Of a DNA stretch of 64,000 nucleotides, positions 46,032 through 64,000 are shown one piece after another. Each line of letters starts with the position of its first letter. The first letter of the stretch is position 1. The notes beneath the pieces were generated by a model, which worked only from the letters and a program-made list of their open reading frames with translations, was not told where the DNA came from and ran no database searches. The DNA is from Chitinispirillaceae bacterium (GTDB lineage Bacteria; Fibrobacterota; Chitinivibrionia; Chitinivibrionales; Chitinispirillaceae). The stretch is taken from contig JAFGHA010000088.1 in NCBI GenBank assembly GCA_016930275.1, positions 1 through 64,000 on the forward strand. Reading direction: 5' to 3'. Position numbers and translations under genes: made by a program.

Positions 46032-47162
46032 CTAAAGGTCAAGGGATAGCTGGGGTGCGTCGTTCTTTCGATGAACGCGTGCAGGTCCGCTTTTTTTTCC
46101 GGTGGTTCCTTCGTTTTCATACGACACTTCGAAGGTATGGTCACCGGACGGTCTGACCGATGTTGGTATTCGCAGTATCAGTTCCGTTTCCTGTTTCGTC
46201 ATTACCGGAAAACCGTGCGGAGAATTCGTATAGCCGCAGGGCTTATTTTCCTTTGCCCTTTTTGCGGCAAACTCCAGATGCATCGAGAGCCGGTCGGACT
46301 GGAATTGCTGCGCTTCTGTGGGAACGGTGCCTAACAGGTCTCGGATACCGGGCAGAAATTCCTCTTCCAGGTCGATACCGATACTGTTTCTGCCGCACAT
46401 TGCCGCCGCGATCATCGAGGTTCCCGTTCCGACAAAGGGGTCCAGCACGCAGTCTCCGTAAAGAGAATACATGTAAATGAGTCGGCGGGCGAGTTCCAGA
46501 GGAAATGCGCCGCTGCGTTTCCGCAGCGTATCGCCGCCAAGGAGCTGTCTGGTTCCTTTAAAATCCCACACATCCGAAAACCAGATGTTGCGTTCCTCCC
46601 AGAAATAAGCGCTTCGCATTCTCTTCAGTTTTTCGTCGGCGGAAGAAAAAAGGCGTTTTCCGCCTTTGCGGAAAATGAGAATATACTCATGCTCGAGTGT
46701 CACGTAGGCGCCGGCGGGCAGCATACCCGATCCCATGAATTTATTGGGAGCATTGGTCTGTTTGTGCCAGAGCAGCACCGGAAGGGCGTCGAAACCCGTC
46801 TCAATACACGAGGCAATGATCCGTGTATGGTTGGTGTACAGCTGGAAACTGCCGCCGATGGTCCGGGTCGCATCACCGATGTTGATGCAGACGAATGCGC
46901 CGTCACGGCAGACCCGGTAGCATTCTCTCCAGACTTTATCAAGTTCCTCGTGCATCAGAATGAATGCACTGAACGCATCTTCCTGCCGTAGAGCTTCCCT
47001 GACGTCCGGGCACAACTGCGTAAAAATATCGTCCCACATCTGAATCATAGGGTAGGGAGGCGATGTGACCACCAGATCGACCGATTCATCGGGAAGCACC
47101 GAAATCGAACGGGAATCTGCAGGAATGAAACGATGGGTGGTGGTGAAATGATCGGTGTTCAT
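46032..47162 (-). CDS. DNA methyltransferase (beta-class, TSPPY), no restriction partner seen
   Basis: The start at 47162 is preferred over the upstream in-frame ATG at 47309, which would overlap the CrtI-like gene; the product is then 376 residues. The catalytic motif IV is VVTSPPYPMI (TSPPY at 33-37) and the SAM motif I is LDPFVGTGTS (near 240-249). This IV-before-I order defines the beta class. TSPPY can methylate N4-cytosine or N6-adenine, so the base is uncertain. Both flanks are metabolic genes and no endonuclease is visible, so it may be an orphan regulatory methylase. A C-terminal DRL-rich extension follows the usual domain. Confidence 0.88.
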   Translation of the reverse strand: MNTDHFTTTHRFIPADSRSISVLPDESVDLVVTSPPYPMIQMWDDIFTQLCPDVREALRQEDAFSAFILMHEELDKVWRECYRVCRDGAFVCINIGDATRTIGGSFQLYTNHTRIIASCIETGFDALPVLLWHKQTNAPNKFMGSGMLPAGAYVTLEHEYILIFRKGGKRLFSSADEKLKRMRSAYFWEERNIWFSDVWDFKGTRQLLGGDTLRKRSGAFPLELARRLIYMYSLYGDCVLDPFVGTGTSMIAAAMCGRNSIGIDLEEEFLPGIRDLLGTVPTEAQQFQSDRLSMHLEFAAKRAKENKPCGYTNSPHGFPVMTKQETELILRIPTSVRPSGDHTFEVSYENEGTTGKKSGPARVHRKNDAPQLSLDL

Positions 47163-57321: not shown

Positions 57322-58347
57322 ATGAGAATATTAGAAAAGACACTCTTTGTTACACTGCTGCTGCTGTGTGGCGTTTTCGCGACTGCCGATACCGCAGCAC
57401 ATCCTGATCTCGATGCCAAAAAAGCCATTGCCGATTCACTGCAGCAGGCGGCTGATTCGCTTGACCTGAAGGCGCAACAGCTTGAGGAGCAGCTCAGAAA
57501 TATCGAGAAAAGCCGAACCGATCTTCGCGACGAGATCGAGGAACAGATTGAGAATCTCCGTGAAGTTATCGAGGATATCAAGGAACAGGTAGAGAAGACA
57601 CTCGACGATCTTCGGGAATCGCAGGACGAGGCAGTGGAACGCCTGGAGGAACAGATTGAAGAACGGGAGGAACACCGGCATGCGGGATCATTCATTTTCG
57701 GGATTGAATATTCCCATCTTGATACCGATCCGTTGCGGTACCTGCAGGATCATGACAAGTCGCTCACGGGTAAATATAATTTCGATTTCAACGACAGAAA
57801 CATGCTGATGTTCGGATTGATGGGGTATTACAACATGCAGAGCGATGTCCGGGTCGGCAACGGTATCTATGCGGGATATAAAAGTTATCAGAGTGACGAG
57901 TATACCACCATCGCGGTTGATTCACTCTTCAATACCTCCGAAGAAGTTGATTCCATCGTTACCCTCCGGGTGATTCCGATGTATATCGGTTTCATCTGTG
58001 AAAAAGCGTTCATTTTCGAGCCGGTCAATTTCTTCGCCGGTATCATGCTCGGTGGTAATCTTTCATTTATCATCAAGGAGGAAGAACGGGCACAAATGAA
58101 CAGCTCGTTCATTTCGGACGATTATGATGATAATGGCGGCAGTGATTACAGCTTCGCATTTGCACCGGCAGTGGCGTGGGATGTTCACGGAGGTATGGCG
58201 TTCAGGCTTTCGGAGCATATGCATATCGGTATCGATGGCGTCATGCGGTTCGCTTATGCCTATGAGGGGTACGGTGCGGGATTCGGTGATTTTCTCTCCG
58301 TCAGCCCAGGGGTCCGTTTAAGATTGACTTTTGGAAATGCGGGATAA
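57322..58347 (+). CDS. Coiled-coil-tethered outer-membrane barrel, family member 1
   Basis: A 341-residue protein with signal peptide (LFVTLLLLCGVFATADTA), GGGGG 6 bases before ATG. Residues about 30-117 are a long charged coiled coil (leucine heptads: LQQAADSLDLKAQQLEEQLRN...). The C-terminal 220 residues form barrel-like strands: MLMFGLMGYYN, VGNGIYAGYKSY, RVIPMYIGFICEKAFIFEPVN, FAGIMLGGNLSFII, DVHGGMAFRLSEHMHIGIDG, and the end SVSPGVRLRLTFGNAG. The last strand 'VNPGf.i.l.FGN.G' and the 'GGFLiEKa....N...GG..GG' block are shared with the next two genes. Function unknown. Confidence 0.75.
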   Translation: MRILEKTLFVTLLLLCGVFATADTAAHPDLDAKKAIADSLQQAADSLDLKAQQLEEQLRNIEKSRTDLRDEIEEQIENLREVIEDIKEQVEKTLDDLRESQDEAVERLEEQIEEREEHRHAGSFIFGIEYSHLDTDPLRYLQDHDKSLTGKYNFDFNDRNMLMFGLMGYYNMQSDVRVGNGIYAGYKSYQSDEYTTIAVDSLFNTSEEVDSIVTLRVIPMYIGFICEKAFIFEPVNFFAGIMLGGNLSFIIKEEERAQMNSSFISDDYDDNGGSDYSFAFAPAVAWDVHGGMAFRLSEHMHIGIDGVMRFAYAYEGYGAGFGDFLSVSPGVRLRLTFGNAG

Positions 58348-58389
58348 CGCGGTCCACTATTCGCTACGGATACCAACAAGGAGAATACG

Positions 58390-59346
58390 ATGAAATACTA
58401 TACATGGTTGAGCTGGATTCTGACAGCGGCGGTACTGTCGTCTGCCGAACCGGTCGAACCGTCCGACACCGCTGCAGCGCCGGTGGAATCCGCTGCCACA
58501 GAAGAGGATACGATTACTTTAAAGCCGGACACTTCTGCTTCCGATGCAGCTACGGGCAGCACTCCGGCAGTGACCGTTTCGGAAAAAGATACTGTTGGTA
58601 AAAATGATATCGTAGTACTTAAAGAGAATCTTGATACGGTATTTATTTTTGATAAGTCGGTATTCCGGCATGTTGCGAAGGACTGGCGGAACAACATTGA
58701 TATTTTCCGCCAGCGTGGTTACGGTGCGTCGGGGAGTTCCTATTATGGTGCCTCGGCCGTTTCCATCCGACCGGTCGAGGAACTTGCGGAACACCTGCCT
58801 TCACTGGCGAATAAGAAGTTTCATTTCAGCAGATTCGGATTTGAGCCGTTTCTGATGTCCGGAGGTGCAGGATTTGTAGGACTCGGAGACGGTTTCCGCC
58901 TCGGTGGGGTTGGTATGAGCGGTGAACGAAGATTTTCGAGTGTTCCGTTTTCCGGAGATTCGGTACTGGTGCTTAGAACCAGAGTAAGTTACGGTGGATT
59001 TCTCATCGAGAAATGTATGCTTCGTGACAAGTGGAATCTTTCGATGGGAGGACTGCTGGGGGGGAGCAGTATAAAGGTGGCAATTTCAGAACAAACTGCT
59101 ACGGCATTCTGGAATGAGGATGACGACCCATTCAGTGGCGAGGAACAGTACAATCACCAGGCGGTCTGTTTCATGGTGGAACCGCATTGCGGTCTGACCT
59201 ATACGATTTTCCATTTTTTTCATCTCGGGGCGCGCGTTTCGCTTCCGATGTTCATGTCACTCGATAAATTCGGTGTTTATACCAATGATTTCTTCTCGGT
59301 CAATCCTGGATTTCAGATCAGTCTCACCTTCGGAAATCTCGGGTAA
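58390..59346 (+). CDS. Outer-membrane barrel, family member 2 (Pro/Ala/Thr-rich N-terminus)
   Basis: A 318-residue paralogue of its neighbours. A signal sequence (MKYYTWLSWILTAAVLSSAE) is followed by a low-complexity Glu/Pro/Ala/Thr/Asp tract (residues about 20-75) in place of the coiled coil. The barrel part has FGFEPFLMSGGAGFVGLGDG, RVSYGGFLIEKCMLRDKWNL, MGGLLGGSSIKV, VEPHCGLTYTIFHFFHLGA and the end FSVNPGFQISLTFGNLG. GGAG lies 6 bases before ATG; it starts 42 bases after gene 1 and is followed by gene 3 after 29 bases. Confidence 0.75.
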   Translation: MKYYTWLSWILTAAVLSSAEPVEPSDTAAAPVESAATEEDTITLKPDTSASDAATGSTPAVTVSEKDTVGKNDIVVLKENLDTVFIFDKSVFRHVAKDWRNNIDIFRQRGYGASGSSYYGASAVSIRPVEELAEHLPSLANKKFHFSRFGFEPFLMSGGAGFVGLGDGFRLGGVGMSGERRFSSVPFSGDSVLVLRTRVSYGGFLIEKCMLRDKWNLSMGGLLGGSSIKVAISEQTATAFWNEDDDPFSGEEQYNHQAVCFMVEPHCGLTYTIFHFFHLGARVSLPMFMSLDKFGVYTNDFFSVNPGFQISLTFGNLG

Positions 59347-59375
59347 GACCACGGAAAGCGCGGAAGAGGTATATC

Positions 59376-60434
59376 GTGAAGCAACAACGGGATAATTTGG
59401 CAACCGGCTTGAATGGTTCATTCCGGCGACTGTTTGTTTTAGTCTGCATTGTCGGTGCAGCTTTGGGTACTGCCGCAGCTGGAGAGGAAAATGCACCGGG
59501 CGGGGCGTCCCGATCGAAGACTCCGGCACCCGAGATCGACTCGCTGCGCAGAGCGATCGATCAACTGCGACAGGAAGCTGCACGTCTTCGTGAGAAAGCT
59601 GATCAGATCGATGACGATGTTGACGAGGCAGTCATCGGGAAGACTGCGGACCATTCCGGTTCGTCCCGGAAGGATACTGTGGAGACTGCCGAGGAATCCA
59701 GGCAGCCGAAAGATACGGTTGAATTATTGTCAAAAGAGGGAACGCGCGCATTTCTGGAATCATTCGGACGGAAGCGTGGTTCCCGGGAACGCGGGTACGG
59801 GGGGGGGATCGGTGCGATGCCGGGAATATTCGTCATGAATATGCGACCGGTGCATCAGTTGCTTGATGCTATTACCTCAAGCAGTGATTTCAGTGAAATC
59901 GCCTTTCCGATAAACAGCAACCTGCAGGGGTTTTTCATGATGGGAATCACCGGGTACGGTGCTCTGGGGAATGGTCTGCGCGTGGGAGGCAGCTATCAGT
60001 CCGGTTCCAGAAGTTATTCCACCCGTGAGCACGATACCACCTATACGGTTGACGTGCATACCTCATTCGGCGGTTTTCTGCTGGAAAAAGCGGCGGTCAC
60101 CGGTCCGATGAACTGGTTTGTTGGCGGAATGGCCGGCGGGGCGGAGATTGACGTCAATCCGTCAAAGGCATCAAACCTTTTTTCAACTATCGATATCAGG
60201 AGTGAGATCGGAAAATCGTATAACCGGTTGAGCGCTCCGGCGCTGCTTCTGGAACTCCACGGCGGATTCACGTATACCATGGTCAACTGGTTCCACATTG
60301 GTGGCGAACTTATGACGCCGTTGTACTTTTCACCTTCAGGATTCAAGACATCGGCCGGACAGAGCGTCACCAACGGATTTGTAACGGTGAATCCCGGGTT
60401 TCGTATCAGAATCATTCTCGGCAATATAGGATAA
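59376..60434 (+). CDS. Outer-membrane barrel, family member 3 (coiled-coil N-terminus)
   Basis: A 352-residue paralogue starting at GTG 59376 (GGAAGAGG 5 bases upstream). The signal sequence is RRLFVLVCIVGAALGTAAAG. A shorter coiled coil follows (PEIDSLRRAIDQLRQEAARL...), then a charged linker and the barrel: QGFFMMGITGYGALGNGLRV, HTSFGGFLLEKAAVTGPMNWF, GGMAGGAEIDVN, ELHGGFTYTMVNWFHIGG and FVTVNPGFRIRIILGNIG. Similarity to members 1 and 2 is clear in three blocks across the barrel. It sits 13 bases before the DUF4390-like gene. Confidence 0.75.
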   Translation: MKQQRDNLATGLNGSFRRLFVLVCIVGAALGTAAAGEENAPGGASRSKTPAPEIDSLRRAIDQLRQEAARLREKADQIDDDVDEAVIGKTADHSGSSRKDTVETAEESRQPKDTVELLSKEGTRAFLESFGRKRGSRERGYGGGIGAMPGIFVMNMRPVHQLLDAITSSSDFSEIAFPINSNLQGFFMMGITGYGALGNGLRVGGSYQSGSRSYSTREHDTTYTVDVHTSFGGFLLEKAAVTGPMNWFVGGMAGGAEIDVNPSKASNLFSTIDIRSEIGKSYNRLSAPALLLELHGGFTYTMVNWFHIGGELMTPLYFSPSGFKTSAGQSVTNGFVTVNPGFRIRIILGNIG

Positions 60435-60447
60435 CGGAAAAGAAACA

Positions 60448-60981
60448 ATGCTCGAAAACGTCGCAGACGGGTTTCTGGGTTTATTCATGTTTTTTTCGCA
60501 CTGGCTTTCGGTCGGCAATGATCAGGGGGAGATCAAAATTGCCGCGGTGCAGGAGCTGAAGAGCCGTGTTGTACTCGAGTGCATCATCTCCTTCGACTGG
60601 AACGAGCGGATGAACGATCTTATCGATGCGGGGATTCCTCTGCGGTTCCGGATCGAATCGATGAGTGACCGGGGGGATACGACCGTTTCACTCCGGACAC
60701 TGGTGTGCGATGTTGGCGACTATACCTATTCTTTCAGTGATTCCATTATCAAGCCTCCCGGCGACAGTGTTTACCATTCCAGGGAATTCAGACAGGTCTA
60801 CCGTGCATTGCGCGATTACCGGCAGGTATCGAGAAGTTTTTCCGCCGGTGCGGGTGTATTTCAGATTGAGGCGGTACTGCTGCCGAGTAGCGTCCGTCAA
60901 CTTGATCGCAGTATCGACATGTCGGATATCTGCGGATGCAGAAAGTTTTCCACGAAGATCGTCCGGAAAGAGAAACGGTAG
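60448..60981 (+). CDS. DUF4390-like protein
   Basis: A 177-residue protein with a hydrophobic N-terminus (FLGLFMFFSHWLSVG). The middle (VVLECIISFDWNERMNDLIDAGIPLRFRIESM, later YTYSFSDSI and YRALRDYRQVSRSF) follows the DUF4390 pattern ('..l.f.l.....eal..GipL.f..ev', 'Y......y.v', 'l.eaL..l'). DUF4390 genes typically precede an NtrY-like kinase and NtrX-like regulator, exactly as here (6 bases before the kinase). The protein is probably periplasmic and may feed the kinase's sensing, but its role is not known. Confidence 0.7.
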   Translation: MLENVADGFLGLFMFFSHWLSVGNDQGEIKIAAVQELKSRVVLECIISFDWNERMNDLIDAGIPLRFRIESMSDRGDTTVSLRTLVCDVGDYTYSFSDSIIKPPGDSVYHSREFRQVYRALRDYRQVSRSFSAGAGVFQIEAVLLPSSVRQLDRSIDMSDICGCRKFSTKIVRKEKR

Positions 60982-60987
60982 CCGACA

Positions 60988-62151
60988 ATGAATCCCTGGA
61001 GAAAACTTGAACTCGAATGGAAAGTGCTGCTGCTCGCGGCGATCCTTTTTATCGCCTTTGTCTGGCCCGTACAACGGTATTTCATTACCCGACTCGCGAC
61101 GGCACTTGACCAGGCGGTTGATCCGCATCTCGAGGAAACGTTGCGCACTGAACTGTCTGATGCCGACAGTACCCGGCGTGACGTGCTCAAGGAACATATC
61201 GAGCGGTACCGGCAGACGCGGGTACTCATTCCGATTGTGGTAGGCGAACAGCAACAGCTTCTGCTGGCGCTTTCCATTGGACTGTTCCTGGTGTTTCTGC
61301 TGCTGGCGTACTGGATGCTCACCCGGCTCACCCGACCGCTCAAACAACTGGCAAGGGCGGTCGATAAAATTGCCAAAGGAGAATCCGCCGAGGTGCGGCG
61401 TGAATCGGGGGGGGCACTGGGTGTTGTTGAACAGGCGGTTATCAATCTGCAGAATGAACTAATGACGCTTCGTGAGAAAGCCCGCATCCAGGGTATGGAG
61501 TCCGCCTGGAAAGATATCGCACGGGTGATGGCGCACGAGATCAAGAATCCGCTTACTCCGATCCGGCTCACGCTCGACCGGATCGAGGAACGTGCGGCAT
61601 CCGGCCATACGATAGAACAGGCGGATTTGACGAAATTTCTCGATCGGATCAATTCTCAGATCGACATGCTTGAACGTCTGGTTGATCAGTTCCGAAGTTT
61701 CTCACGGGAACCTGAAGTAAGTATCGCCACGGTCGATTGCGCTGCTCTGATACGGCAGGCTGCCGACGATATGGGTGAAAAAATCATTACCACGGTTACC
61801 GGGGAAGCGACGATTGAGTCCGATCCTTATCTGCTCCAGCAGATTTTTCTGAATCTCTGGAAAAACGCTCTGGAGGCGGGTGCCGATTCGGTATCGGCGG
61901 TTATTACCCGGAAGGATACCGTAACGGAAATAACCGTTACCGATAACGGTCCGGGAATTGCCCGCGGGGATCTCGACCGTATCTGGCTGCCGTATGTGAC
62001 ACTCAAGAAAAACGGAACCGGCCTCGGCCTTCCGGTAGTCAAGCGGCTCATCGAAACGCTCGGCGGCAGCGTTACCCTCGCTTCTCCCGCACGGGGAGGC
62101 GTACGAATTGAGATCATTGTACCGAACCACCTGAGCAGGGGGACTGCCTGA
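60988..62151 (+). CDS. NtrY-like membrane sensor histidine kinase
   Basis: A 387-residue kinase: helices at about 13-30 and 91-110 bracket a short periplasmic loop of about 60 residues. A HAMP-type segment follows (LTRPLKQLARAVDKIAKGE), then the HisKA domain with His183 in MAHEIKNPLTPIRLTLDRI, which is the NtrY spelling. The ATPase has N-box LWKNALEAG, G1 DNGPGIARGD and G2 NGTGLGLPVVKRL. There is no obvious PAS domain. Its stop TGA is immediately followed by the ATG of the response regulator (0-base gap), so the pair is co-translated. Confidence 0.93.
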   Translation: MNPWRKLELEWKVLLLAAILFIAFVWPVQRYFITRLATALDQAVDPHLEETLRTELSDADSTRRDVLKEHIERYRQTRVLIPIVVGEQQQLLLALSIGLFLVFLLLAYWMLTRLTRPLKQLARAVDKIAKGESAEVRRESGGALGVVEQAVINLQNELMTLREKARIQGMESAWKDIARVMAHEIKNPLTPIRLTLDRIEERAASGHTIEQADLTKFLDRINSQIDMLERLVDQFRSFSREPEVSIATVDCAALIRQAADDMGEKIITTVTGEATIESDPYLLQQIFLNLWKNALEAGADSVSAVITRKDTVTEITVTDNGPGIARGDLDRIWLPYVTLKKNGTGLGLPVVKRLIETLGGSVTLASPARGGVRIEIIVPNHLSRGTA

Positions 62152-63504
62152 ATGGAAAAACAGATGCGTATTCTGGTTGTTGATGACGAAGCGGCGATTC
62201 GGGAGAGTCTGTCGGAGATACTGATCGAGGAAGGGTACGACGTCTGTTGCGCGGAAAGTGCGGGAAGCGCCCGACAGCAGGTGTCCGGGCCGGTTGATCT
62301 GGTACTTCTGGATATAAAGCTCGGCAGTGACAACGGTATTGAACTGCTCAGGGAAATCAAGGAGCAGCGACCGTTTCTGCCGGTCATCATGATCAGCGGA
62401 CATGGGACGGTTGCGCTTACCGCTGAGGCGTTCAAGCTGGGTGCTCATGAATTTATGGAAAAACCGCTTCGGTTGATACAGGTGCGCGCCTGTGTCCGTA
62501 ATGCGCTCGAAGCGGTGAAACTTAAAAACCGGGTACTCGAACAGGAACGGGCGCGATATCCACGTCCGCTTTACAAATCAGGTATCATGAAACAGTTGTT
62601 CGGACAGGCGGGGCGTCTGGCTTCATTGAAAGAACCGGTGGTTATTACCGGTCCTTCCGGTTCGGGCAAGGAACTGGTGGCCCACGCGCTTCATTACGAA
62701 GGAACCAGACGGGAAGGGCCTTTCTGTGCGACAAATGCCGCTTCCATGCCGGTAACGCTTGCGGAGGATGAATTGTTCGGTCACGAGAAAGGTGCCTTTA
62801 CCGGTGCCGACCGGCAGCGAATCGGCTGTCTTGAAAAAGCACATGGCGGCACCCTCTTTCTTGATGAGATCGCCGACCTCGATCTGCAGATTCAGGCGAA
62901 ACTGCTTCGGGTCCTCGAAACCGGAACGCTCATGCGGCTTGGCGGAACTCAACCGGTGCAGGTGGATGTGCGGATAATTGCTGCTACGCATAAAAATCTG
63001 GGCCGGATGGCTGAGGAAGGCACTTTTCGACATGACCTCTGGTATCGGTTGTGCGCCTTTGTGCTGCAGGTGCCGTCGCTGGCAGATCGAAAGGATGATA
63101 TCCCTCTGCTGGCCTCTGCGTTTCTGGCGAAAAGCTGTGCGGAAATGGGATGCGTAAAAAAGTTCACCGAAGGCGCGCTTGCCCGGTTGAAATCAATGCC
63201 GTTCCCCGGTAATGTCCGTGAATTGCGGCATGTCGTAACCCGAGCCGCGGTGTTTTCAGATGATAACGAGATAACTGAACAGGCGATTATCGCCGTGGCA
63301 TCCACAAGTACCGTTGTGGGCTCTTCATCCACCGCAATAAGGTATCATGAGTTCGATTACCGTACGGCACGGGAACGGTTTGAAATGGATTATTTCAAGG
63401 CGGTTCTCGAAAAAGCGAAGGGAAATATCACTGCAGCTGCCGCGGCGATCGGAATGGCACAATCGAATATGTCCCGTAAACTGAAGGAACTGGGATTGCG
63501 ATAG
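62152..63504 (+). CDS. NtrC/NtrX-family sigma-54-dependent response regulator
   Basis: A 450-residue regulator. The receiver domain (residues 5-115) has Asp54 in LVLLDIKLG and the Lys motif FMEKPL. The AAA+ domain follows: Walker A GPSGSGKE (167-174), the sigma-54-contacting GAFTGA loop (214-219), Walker B GTLFLDEIADL and sensor regions ending FPGNVREL. The C-terminal Fis-type helix-turn-helix is NITAAAAAIGMAQSNMSRKL. Intact GAFTGA means it can open sigma-54 promoters. The nearest sigma-54 promoter is 240 bases downstream (63745-63760). Confidence 0.95.
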   Translation: MEKQMRILVVDDEAAIRESLSEILIEEGYDVCCAESAGSARQQVSGPVDLVLLDIKLGSDNGIELLREIKEQRPFLPVIMISGHGTVALTAEAFKLGAHEFMEKPLRLIQVRACVRNALEAVKLKNRVLEQERARYPRPLYKSGIMKQLFGQAGRLASLKEPVVITGPSGSGKELVAHALHYEGTRREGPFCATNAASMPVTLAEDELFGHEKGAFTGADRQRIGCLEKAHGGTLFLDEIADLDLQIQAKLLRVLETGTLMRLGGTQPVQVDVRIIAATHKNLGRMAEEGTFRHDLWYRLCAFVLQVPSLADRKDDIPLLASAFLAKSCAEMGCVKKFTEGALARLKSMPFPGNVRELRHVVTRAAVFSDDNEITEQAIIAVASTSTVVGSSSTAIRYHEFDYRTARERFEMDYFKAVLEKAKGNITAAAAAIGMAQSNMSRKLKELGLR

Positions 63505-63666
63505 ATTAGAAAACGCTTGTCTTATTTCAAACCGGTCGGGTGCTTCAAGGTTCTCAAGGAGAGAAAACAGGGCAAAGGTGGTATCAATTTCCATGTTTTT
63601 TGCAGATCTTTTCACTCGGGTGGATCCACAACAGTGGAGATGATTTGCAAACTAAGACAGCAGATG

Positions 63667-63685
63667 GTGTAAATTTTTTTTACAC
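63667..63685. promoter_or_regulatory. Palindrome, possible activator-binding site upstream of the sigma-54 promoter
   Basis: GTGTAAA, 5 T, TTTACAC (63667-63685), a perfect 7-bp dyad. Its centre lies about 95 bases before the predicted start of the RNA at 63771, the usual place for an upstream activator site of NtrC-type proteins. It could instead be a weak terminator for the regulator gene. Confidence 0.5.
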
Positions 63686-63744
63686 TTGTTCGATATTCTT
63701 TACATAAAAACTGCCAAAAGCAATAATAAATTCAAAACCCGTTA

Positions 63745-63760
63745 TGGCACGTCATTTGCA
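63745..63760 (+). promoter_or_regulatory. Sigma-54 promoter (-24/-12)
   Basis: TGGCACG (63745-63751), four bases, TTGCA (63756-63760). It matches the consensus TGGCACG-N4-TTGCW at every position, with exactly 10 bases between the -24 GG (63746-63747) and the -12 GC (63758-63759). It is the only full match I found on either strand by eye, and it lies 240 bases after the sigma-54 activator gene. Confidence 0.85.
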
Positions 63761-63770
63761 AACAATAAGA

Positions 63771-63847
63771 GACATTGCTTCCTTTTCACCTGGAGCTGGA
63801 ATAGAATAGGCAGGGATCGGTTTCAAAAGACCGGTCCCTGTTTTTTT
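63771..63847 (+). ncRNA. Predicted sigma-54-dependent small RNA, about 77 nt
   Basis: Transcription from the promoter at 63745-63760 should start near 63771, and the strong terminator ends near 63847. The transcript has a pyrimidine-rich 5' part (CATTGCTTCCTTTTCACCT) and the terminator hairpin as its 3' end, the usual build of a trans-acting bacterial sRNA. No ORF with a ribosome site fits inside. The 62-codon frame crossing the region starts before the promoter and runs through the terminator, so it is unlikely to be coding. This is a prediction without experimental support. Confidence 0.6.
63811..63847 (+). terminator. Rho-independent terminator of the predicted small RNA
   Basis: CAGGGATCGGT pairs with ACCGGTCCCTG (11 bp with one G-U), 8-base loop, then seven T residues (63841-63847). 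It faces the same direction as the sigma-54 promoter. Confidence 0.92.
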
Positions 63848-63969
63848 GTGGTGAAATCCCCCACGGTCCGATAGCCGGCAGCACGGATATCTTCACGAAT
63901 TGATTTGAAAGGGAAGAGAGGGTCTGCGGCAGCCGGGTTTTCCTGTTTGTTGACGGAAGAGGTCCGGCG
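63823..63969 (-). pseudogene. Coding-like fragment at the window edge, possibly broken
   Basis: On the minus strand a frame between an in-frame TGA (63970-63972) and the stop at 63823-63825 reads protein-like (KSIREDIRAAGYRTVGDFTT), and before the TGA the same frame reads VVFTGKGAH. No start codon lies between. It may be the end of a gene that is broken by the TGA or carries a frameshift, running in from beyond the window. It overlaps the sRNA terminator. No family is recognised. Confidence 0.25.
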
Positions 63970-64000
63970 TCAGTGAGCACCTTTACCGGTAAAAACCACC

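Follow-up and report, generated by a model that had tools for sequence, protein, structure and literature searches.

Results

A sigma-54 promoter followed by a terminator

The locus described here raises the question of what is made from an exact sigma-54 promoter when a strong intrinsic terminator is reached before any gene. It lies near the end of the window, by which we mean the whole stretch of 64,000 nt that was analysed, on a 69.1 kb contig of a Chitinispirillaceae-like MAG (Fibrobacterota; 5.89 Mb, 87% complete, 7% contaminated), the named relatives of which are Chitinispirillaceae and Chitinivibrionales MAGs. The best matches of both the activator and the transferase that flank the locus fall in one and the same genus, which shows that the contig is no contaminant. 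The features of the region are:

60988-62151, + strand: sensor histidine kinase, the activator's partner, the stop codon of which adjoins the activator's start codon (Pfam/NCBIfam)
62152-63504, + strand: NtrC/NtrX-type response regulator, a sigma-54 activator with GAFTGA (Pfam and NCBIfam); candidate activator of the promoter
63667-63685, no strand: perfect dyad GTGTAAA-N5-TTTACAC, a candidate activator site, centred near -95 relative to the predicted start
63699-63727, + strand: sigma-70-like promoter TTTACA-N17-AATAAT, a possible alternative start (10 of 12 matches; 0.5 expected by chance in the region)
63745-63760, + strand: exact sigma-54 -24/-12 promoter TGGCACG-TCAT-TTGCA (from sequence; genome-wide count 2, reversed control 0)
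63771-63847, + strand: predicted small RNA, non-coding and about 77 nt long (start from promoter geometry; no ORF with a ribosome site; fold z -3.6)
63808-63847, + strand: intrinsic terminator with a 16-pair stem and 4-nt loop (63808-63843) and a T-run to 63847 (dG -24.6 kcal/mol, z -6.25 versus dinucleotide shuffles)
63970-64000, - strand: 3' end of a convergent gene for an EPS polyprenyl glycosylphosphotransferase (TIGR03025, above cut-off), which extends to contig position 65415

The first-pass annotation had proposed a full-consensus -24/-12 promoter, to which the sequence is an exact match, and a strong terminator about 50 nt further on with no plausible ORF between, which is confirmed, the spacing being 48 nt. 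Transcription would be expected to start at 63771, 12 nt past the C of the -12 element (63759). The 77-nt RNA thus predicted has a folding energy of -28.9 kcal/mol, nearly all of it (as of its z score) due to the terminator, with the first 37 nt largely single-stranded in the fold; its sole start codon is a TTG opening 9 codons, without a ribosome site. The 10-mer ATTTGCAAAC, which includes the -12 element, is present at 63754-63763 and again 111 nt upstream (63643-63652), where no -24 element stands at the correct spacing.

Exact sigma-54 sites in the order and the phylum

With 12 fixed bases and both strands counted, chance would supply about 0.008 exact sites per 64 kb. The genome contains two, the second being 102 nt 5' of a flagellin start, and in a survey of 40 genomes from the order, exact sites number 77 and reversed-pattern sites 12. 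We examined 144 distinct exact sites across the phylum, classing them by what comes 3'. The great majority (124 of 144) lie within 300 nt upstream of an ORF whose start codon has a ribosome site, at a median distance of 62 nt, and the genes behind exact sites include flagellin, amtB-like and glutamate-synthase-like genes; of the others, 8 precede an ORF without a ribosome site, 6 are within ORFs, 2 have nothing after them and 4 have a terminator first. Since the exact motif is enriched over its reversed pattern and is mostly placed at gene starts, comparative statistics indicate that it is demonstrably functional in this lineage and a good predictor of promoters.

The pairing of such a promoter with a terminator and no gene is rare here. 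Among the four terminator-first sites, one (L180) is inside a coding frame and another (L280) has its hairpin across the start point, with a gene after it, so that a strong terminator before any gene is found only at the present site and at one in G024, a genome of another family of the order (L061/L256). We also considered whether homologous sRNAs might stand under relaxed promoters in the genus, an idea that was rejected, as 42 relaxed-promoter sites in three genomes yielded no further promoter-terminator unit.

The G024 unit (L256:5041-5168) has the exact site TGGCACGGCACTTGCA and a strong terminator (dG -20.3) 80-112 nt on, with no homology to the 63745-63847 unit. Because a Cys-rich small ORF and a gene for a CcdA-like membrane protein come next, this unit could represent a terminator-bearing leader rather than an sRNA. 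Exact sigma-54 promoters also precede heat-shock genes in several relatives (L048 and L050, Hsp20-like; L175, GrpE-like before DnaK-like), suggesting that chaperones may be under sigma-54 control in the phylum, and behind an exact promoter at L171 (G001, same genus) stands an ORF of 63 residues that has a good ribosome site (MIPKITPDNIINPASFDVSRVEKTIPFLGG...) and may encode a small protein.

The neighbouring two-component system

The unit sits between the activator gene, which ends at 63504, 241 nt before the promoter, and the convergent sugar-transferase gene, the stop codon of which is at 63970. The activator gene is the last of six consecutive genes (57322-63504) with intergenic gaps of 0-43 nt, encoding, in order, three barrel-type-looking envelope proteins, a 177-residue protein, the histidine kinase and the regulator. 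In a relative, G039 (L013), an envelope-protein-like gene is 3' of the orthologous activator, and here barrel-like genes are 5' of the kinase-activator pair, hinting at a conserved tie between the two-component system and envelope proteins.

The activator gene is complete, with a receiver, a sigma-54 AAA+ domain containing GAFTGA and a Fis-type HTH, in agreement with the first-pass annotation; the 'NtrX-type' label that it was given is a looser one. NtrC and NtrX are its best curated NCBIfam models, and both scores are below cut-off (NtrX, NF051870, 370.8 bits against 600; NtrC, 378.2 bits against 558.6). From its sequence it is best described as an unassigned NtrC/NtrX-type activator, the curated cut-offs not allowing the name NtrX. 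It is one of about 24 full-length sigma-54 activators in the genome, which has a single copy of RpoN.

The perfect dyad, present as a single copy in the genome, is centred at about -95, a common location for activator sites. As a regulon box the dyad was rejected, because sites with at most one mismatch are not enriched: the 13 genomes examined have 15 of them and 19 of the reversed control. The case for it as the activator site is thus suggestive only.

Conservation and family searches

By the first-pass annotation's own standard, lack of conservation of the promoter or RNA in relatives would refute it, and as far as could be tested, conservation is absent. A set of 17 genomes with activator orthologues (E below 1e-130) was assembled, including the genome itself and two of the same genus, the nearest available, at 76% identity; in 16 of the 16 relatives there is no sigma-54 site or similar sequence 3' of the activator orthologue. 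DNA searches covered 60 relatives (query 63667-63900) and 168 genomes of the phylum (query 63745-63847); apart from the query itself, they returned only chance matches, about 20 nt long. A second match in its own genome (C51), 29 nt within a histidine-kinase gene, was likewise dismissed as chance. The plasmid collection gave no match, and neither did Rfam 15, at E up to 1 or at gathering, so that no match to the Qrr, GlmY, GlmZ or CrcZ families was obtained.

The sequence comparisons rule out the unit as a conserved partner of the two-component system. The 3' neighbour of the activator differs in every relative and that of the sugar transferase varies too, from which it follows that the region 3' of the activator has been rearranged. 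Both flanks of the unit being synteny break points, and the nearest relative being only 76% identical in the activator, absence in relatives says little about a young, strain-level sRNA.

Candidate targets and RNA-binding proteins

The three envelope barrel genes (57322, 58390, 59376) had been put forward as natural targets, an idea that we abandon, as their pairing with the predicted RNA is no better than that of shuffled RNA (fractions 0.22, 0.14, 0.50). The best pairing in the window (-32.6 kcal/mol), at 46032, was rejected, the start codon there being doubtful and the net gain on co-folding unexceptional (42 of 300 shuffles as good). In a comparison of 51 start regions in the window, the gene at 60448, in the same operon and two genes before the activator, ranks third with a z-score of -2.84, a value equalled by 10 of 1000 shuffles; here the RNA would pair with both the purine-rich ribosome site and the start codon (RNA 5' end CAUUG-C-UUC-C-UUUUC versus GAAAAGAAACAAUG). 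Once the 51 start regions are allowed for, no target in the window, 60448 included, is significant. Vibrio Qrr RNAs repress luxO; that a lineage-specific sigma-54 sRNA, in a phylum apparently without Hfq, might likewise feed back on its own regulator operon via 60448 is a conjecture that we regard as very improbable.

No Hfq (PF17209) scored over cut-off in the genome itself (87% complete) or in 24 relatives of the family and order, an absence consistent across the family, while control genomes were positive. The analogy with Qrr and GlmZ that had been drawn leans on Hfq and is not supported by this result in 25 genomes. Titration of CsrA was considered and rejected, the RNA having no ANGGA site in a loop and only three GGA triplets in all. 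A CsrA gene is found beside fliW and flagellin in the genome itself (G000, L339:1560-1796).

Discussion

The most economical reading of the locus, to which we assign a probability of roughly 0.55, is that it specifies a short, lineage-specific RNA driven by sigma-54. We prefer it because exact sites are real promoters in this phylum and because the strong terminator precedes any gene. Sigma-54 RNA polymerase would start at about 63771 and stop at the terminator at 63847, yielding an untranslated RNA of about 77 nt. Sigma-54 promoters need an ATP-dependent activator, and we infer that the adjacent two-component activator is the natural candidate for this role, with read-through from its operon potentially adding a basal level of the RNA, in the manner of cbrB-crcZ. 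The RNA itself would probably be regulatory, acting via its single-stranded, pyrimidine-rich 5' part (GACAUUGCUUCCUUUUCACC). The promoter, RpoN, the ORF-less stretch and the order and spacing of the terminator support the original proposal of a sigma-54 sRNA; its expectations regarding conservation, barrel targets, the NtrX name and the Hfq analogy are not supported. The lack of conservation, of a significant target, of Hfq and of enrichment of the dyad all count against an sRNA, as does the possibility that the terminator ends an ntrYX-like operon.

That last possibility is the main rival, although we consider it unlikely: the terminator would mark the end of the activator operon, giving it a 3' UTR some 340 nt long, and the -24/-12 site would be fortuitous or unused. 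The terminator at 63808-63847 is the first on the + strand after the activator gene (63504), no alternative being found on that strand before the convergent gene, and the absence of the unit from relatives fits this explanation too. The reversed pattern implies about 12 chance exact-type sites per 40 genomes, from which, assuming that a few percent of sequence is convergent intergenic, about 0.3 such cases would be expected over those genomes. However, the strong enrichment of exact sites and their placement, nearly always at gene starts, make a fortuitous one 48 nt before a strong terminator less likely.

Alternatively, a gene under sigma-54 control may have been deleted or replaced in a rearrangement, with the promoter as its remnant and a short RNA without a role. 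Such promoters serve protein genes elsewhere, and the differing neighbours of the activator and transferase point to a rearranged junction, but no pseudogene-like ORF was found in 63505-63970, and both the promoter core and the terminator are perfect, whereas decay would erode them; we therefore think this explanation improbable. To much the same degree we doubt that the RNA acts in cis, as antisense to the 3' UTR of the mRNA for the convergent sugar transferase, or that the promoter limits that mRNA through colliding transcription. No minus-strand terminator was found from 63970 to the RNA region, such that the transferase message may run across the whole of the RNA, but in relatives the orthologous transferase genes have no comparable element on their 3' side.

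If a short sigma-54 RNA is indeed made, its closest precedent in arrangement is CrcZ (cbrA-cbrB-crcZ) of Pseudomonas and Azotobacter. As with CrcZ, the candidate is directly 3' of a histidine kinase/sigma-54 activator pair and would form its own unit with possible read-through; crcZ, 3' of cbrB, is a separate sigma-54-dependent unit for which read-through gives a basal level (PMC8871633, PMC10562864). CrcZ is, however, longer, has a synteny conserved across its family, binds Hfq/Crc and is proven to be activated by CbrB, whereas the 77-nt candidate is not conserved, has no Rfam match, comes from a genome in which no Hfq was detected and has only a candidate activator. GlmY of enterics (glmY-qseE-qseG-qseF) is likewise a sigma-54-dependent sRNA beside two-component genes with an envelope theme, and is switched on by the activator of the adjoining two-component system (PMC8745638, PMC6075780). 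Unlike the candidate, GlmY is upstream of its system, conserved, processed and works via RapZ and GlmZ, and there is no similarity in sequence or in Rfam. The Vibrio Qrr RNAs resemble the candidate in being short, sigma-54-driven and adjoining or controlled by an NtrC-family regulator (LuxO), but they are conserved, multi-copy and Hfq-dependent, whereas the candidate has no Rfam Qrr match and its family no detectable Hfq.

A review gives only 16 sRNA families for the entire FCB group (PMC9029176), and in the literature that we searched, no paper on sigma-54 and small RNA in Fibrobacter turned up. The unit remains a prediction from a single genome, adding one to the predicted cases, in a lineage that is unstudied. 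Should it be transcribed, Fibrobacterota would have, to our knowledge and in the literature searched, its first proposed sigma-54-driven sRNA, which, in an apparently Hfq-less lineage, could not act in the way that GlmZ and Qrr do. It would also imply that an arrangement with the sRNA immediately behind the sigma-54 activator that drives it, as with crcZ and glmY, has arisen again independently.
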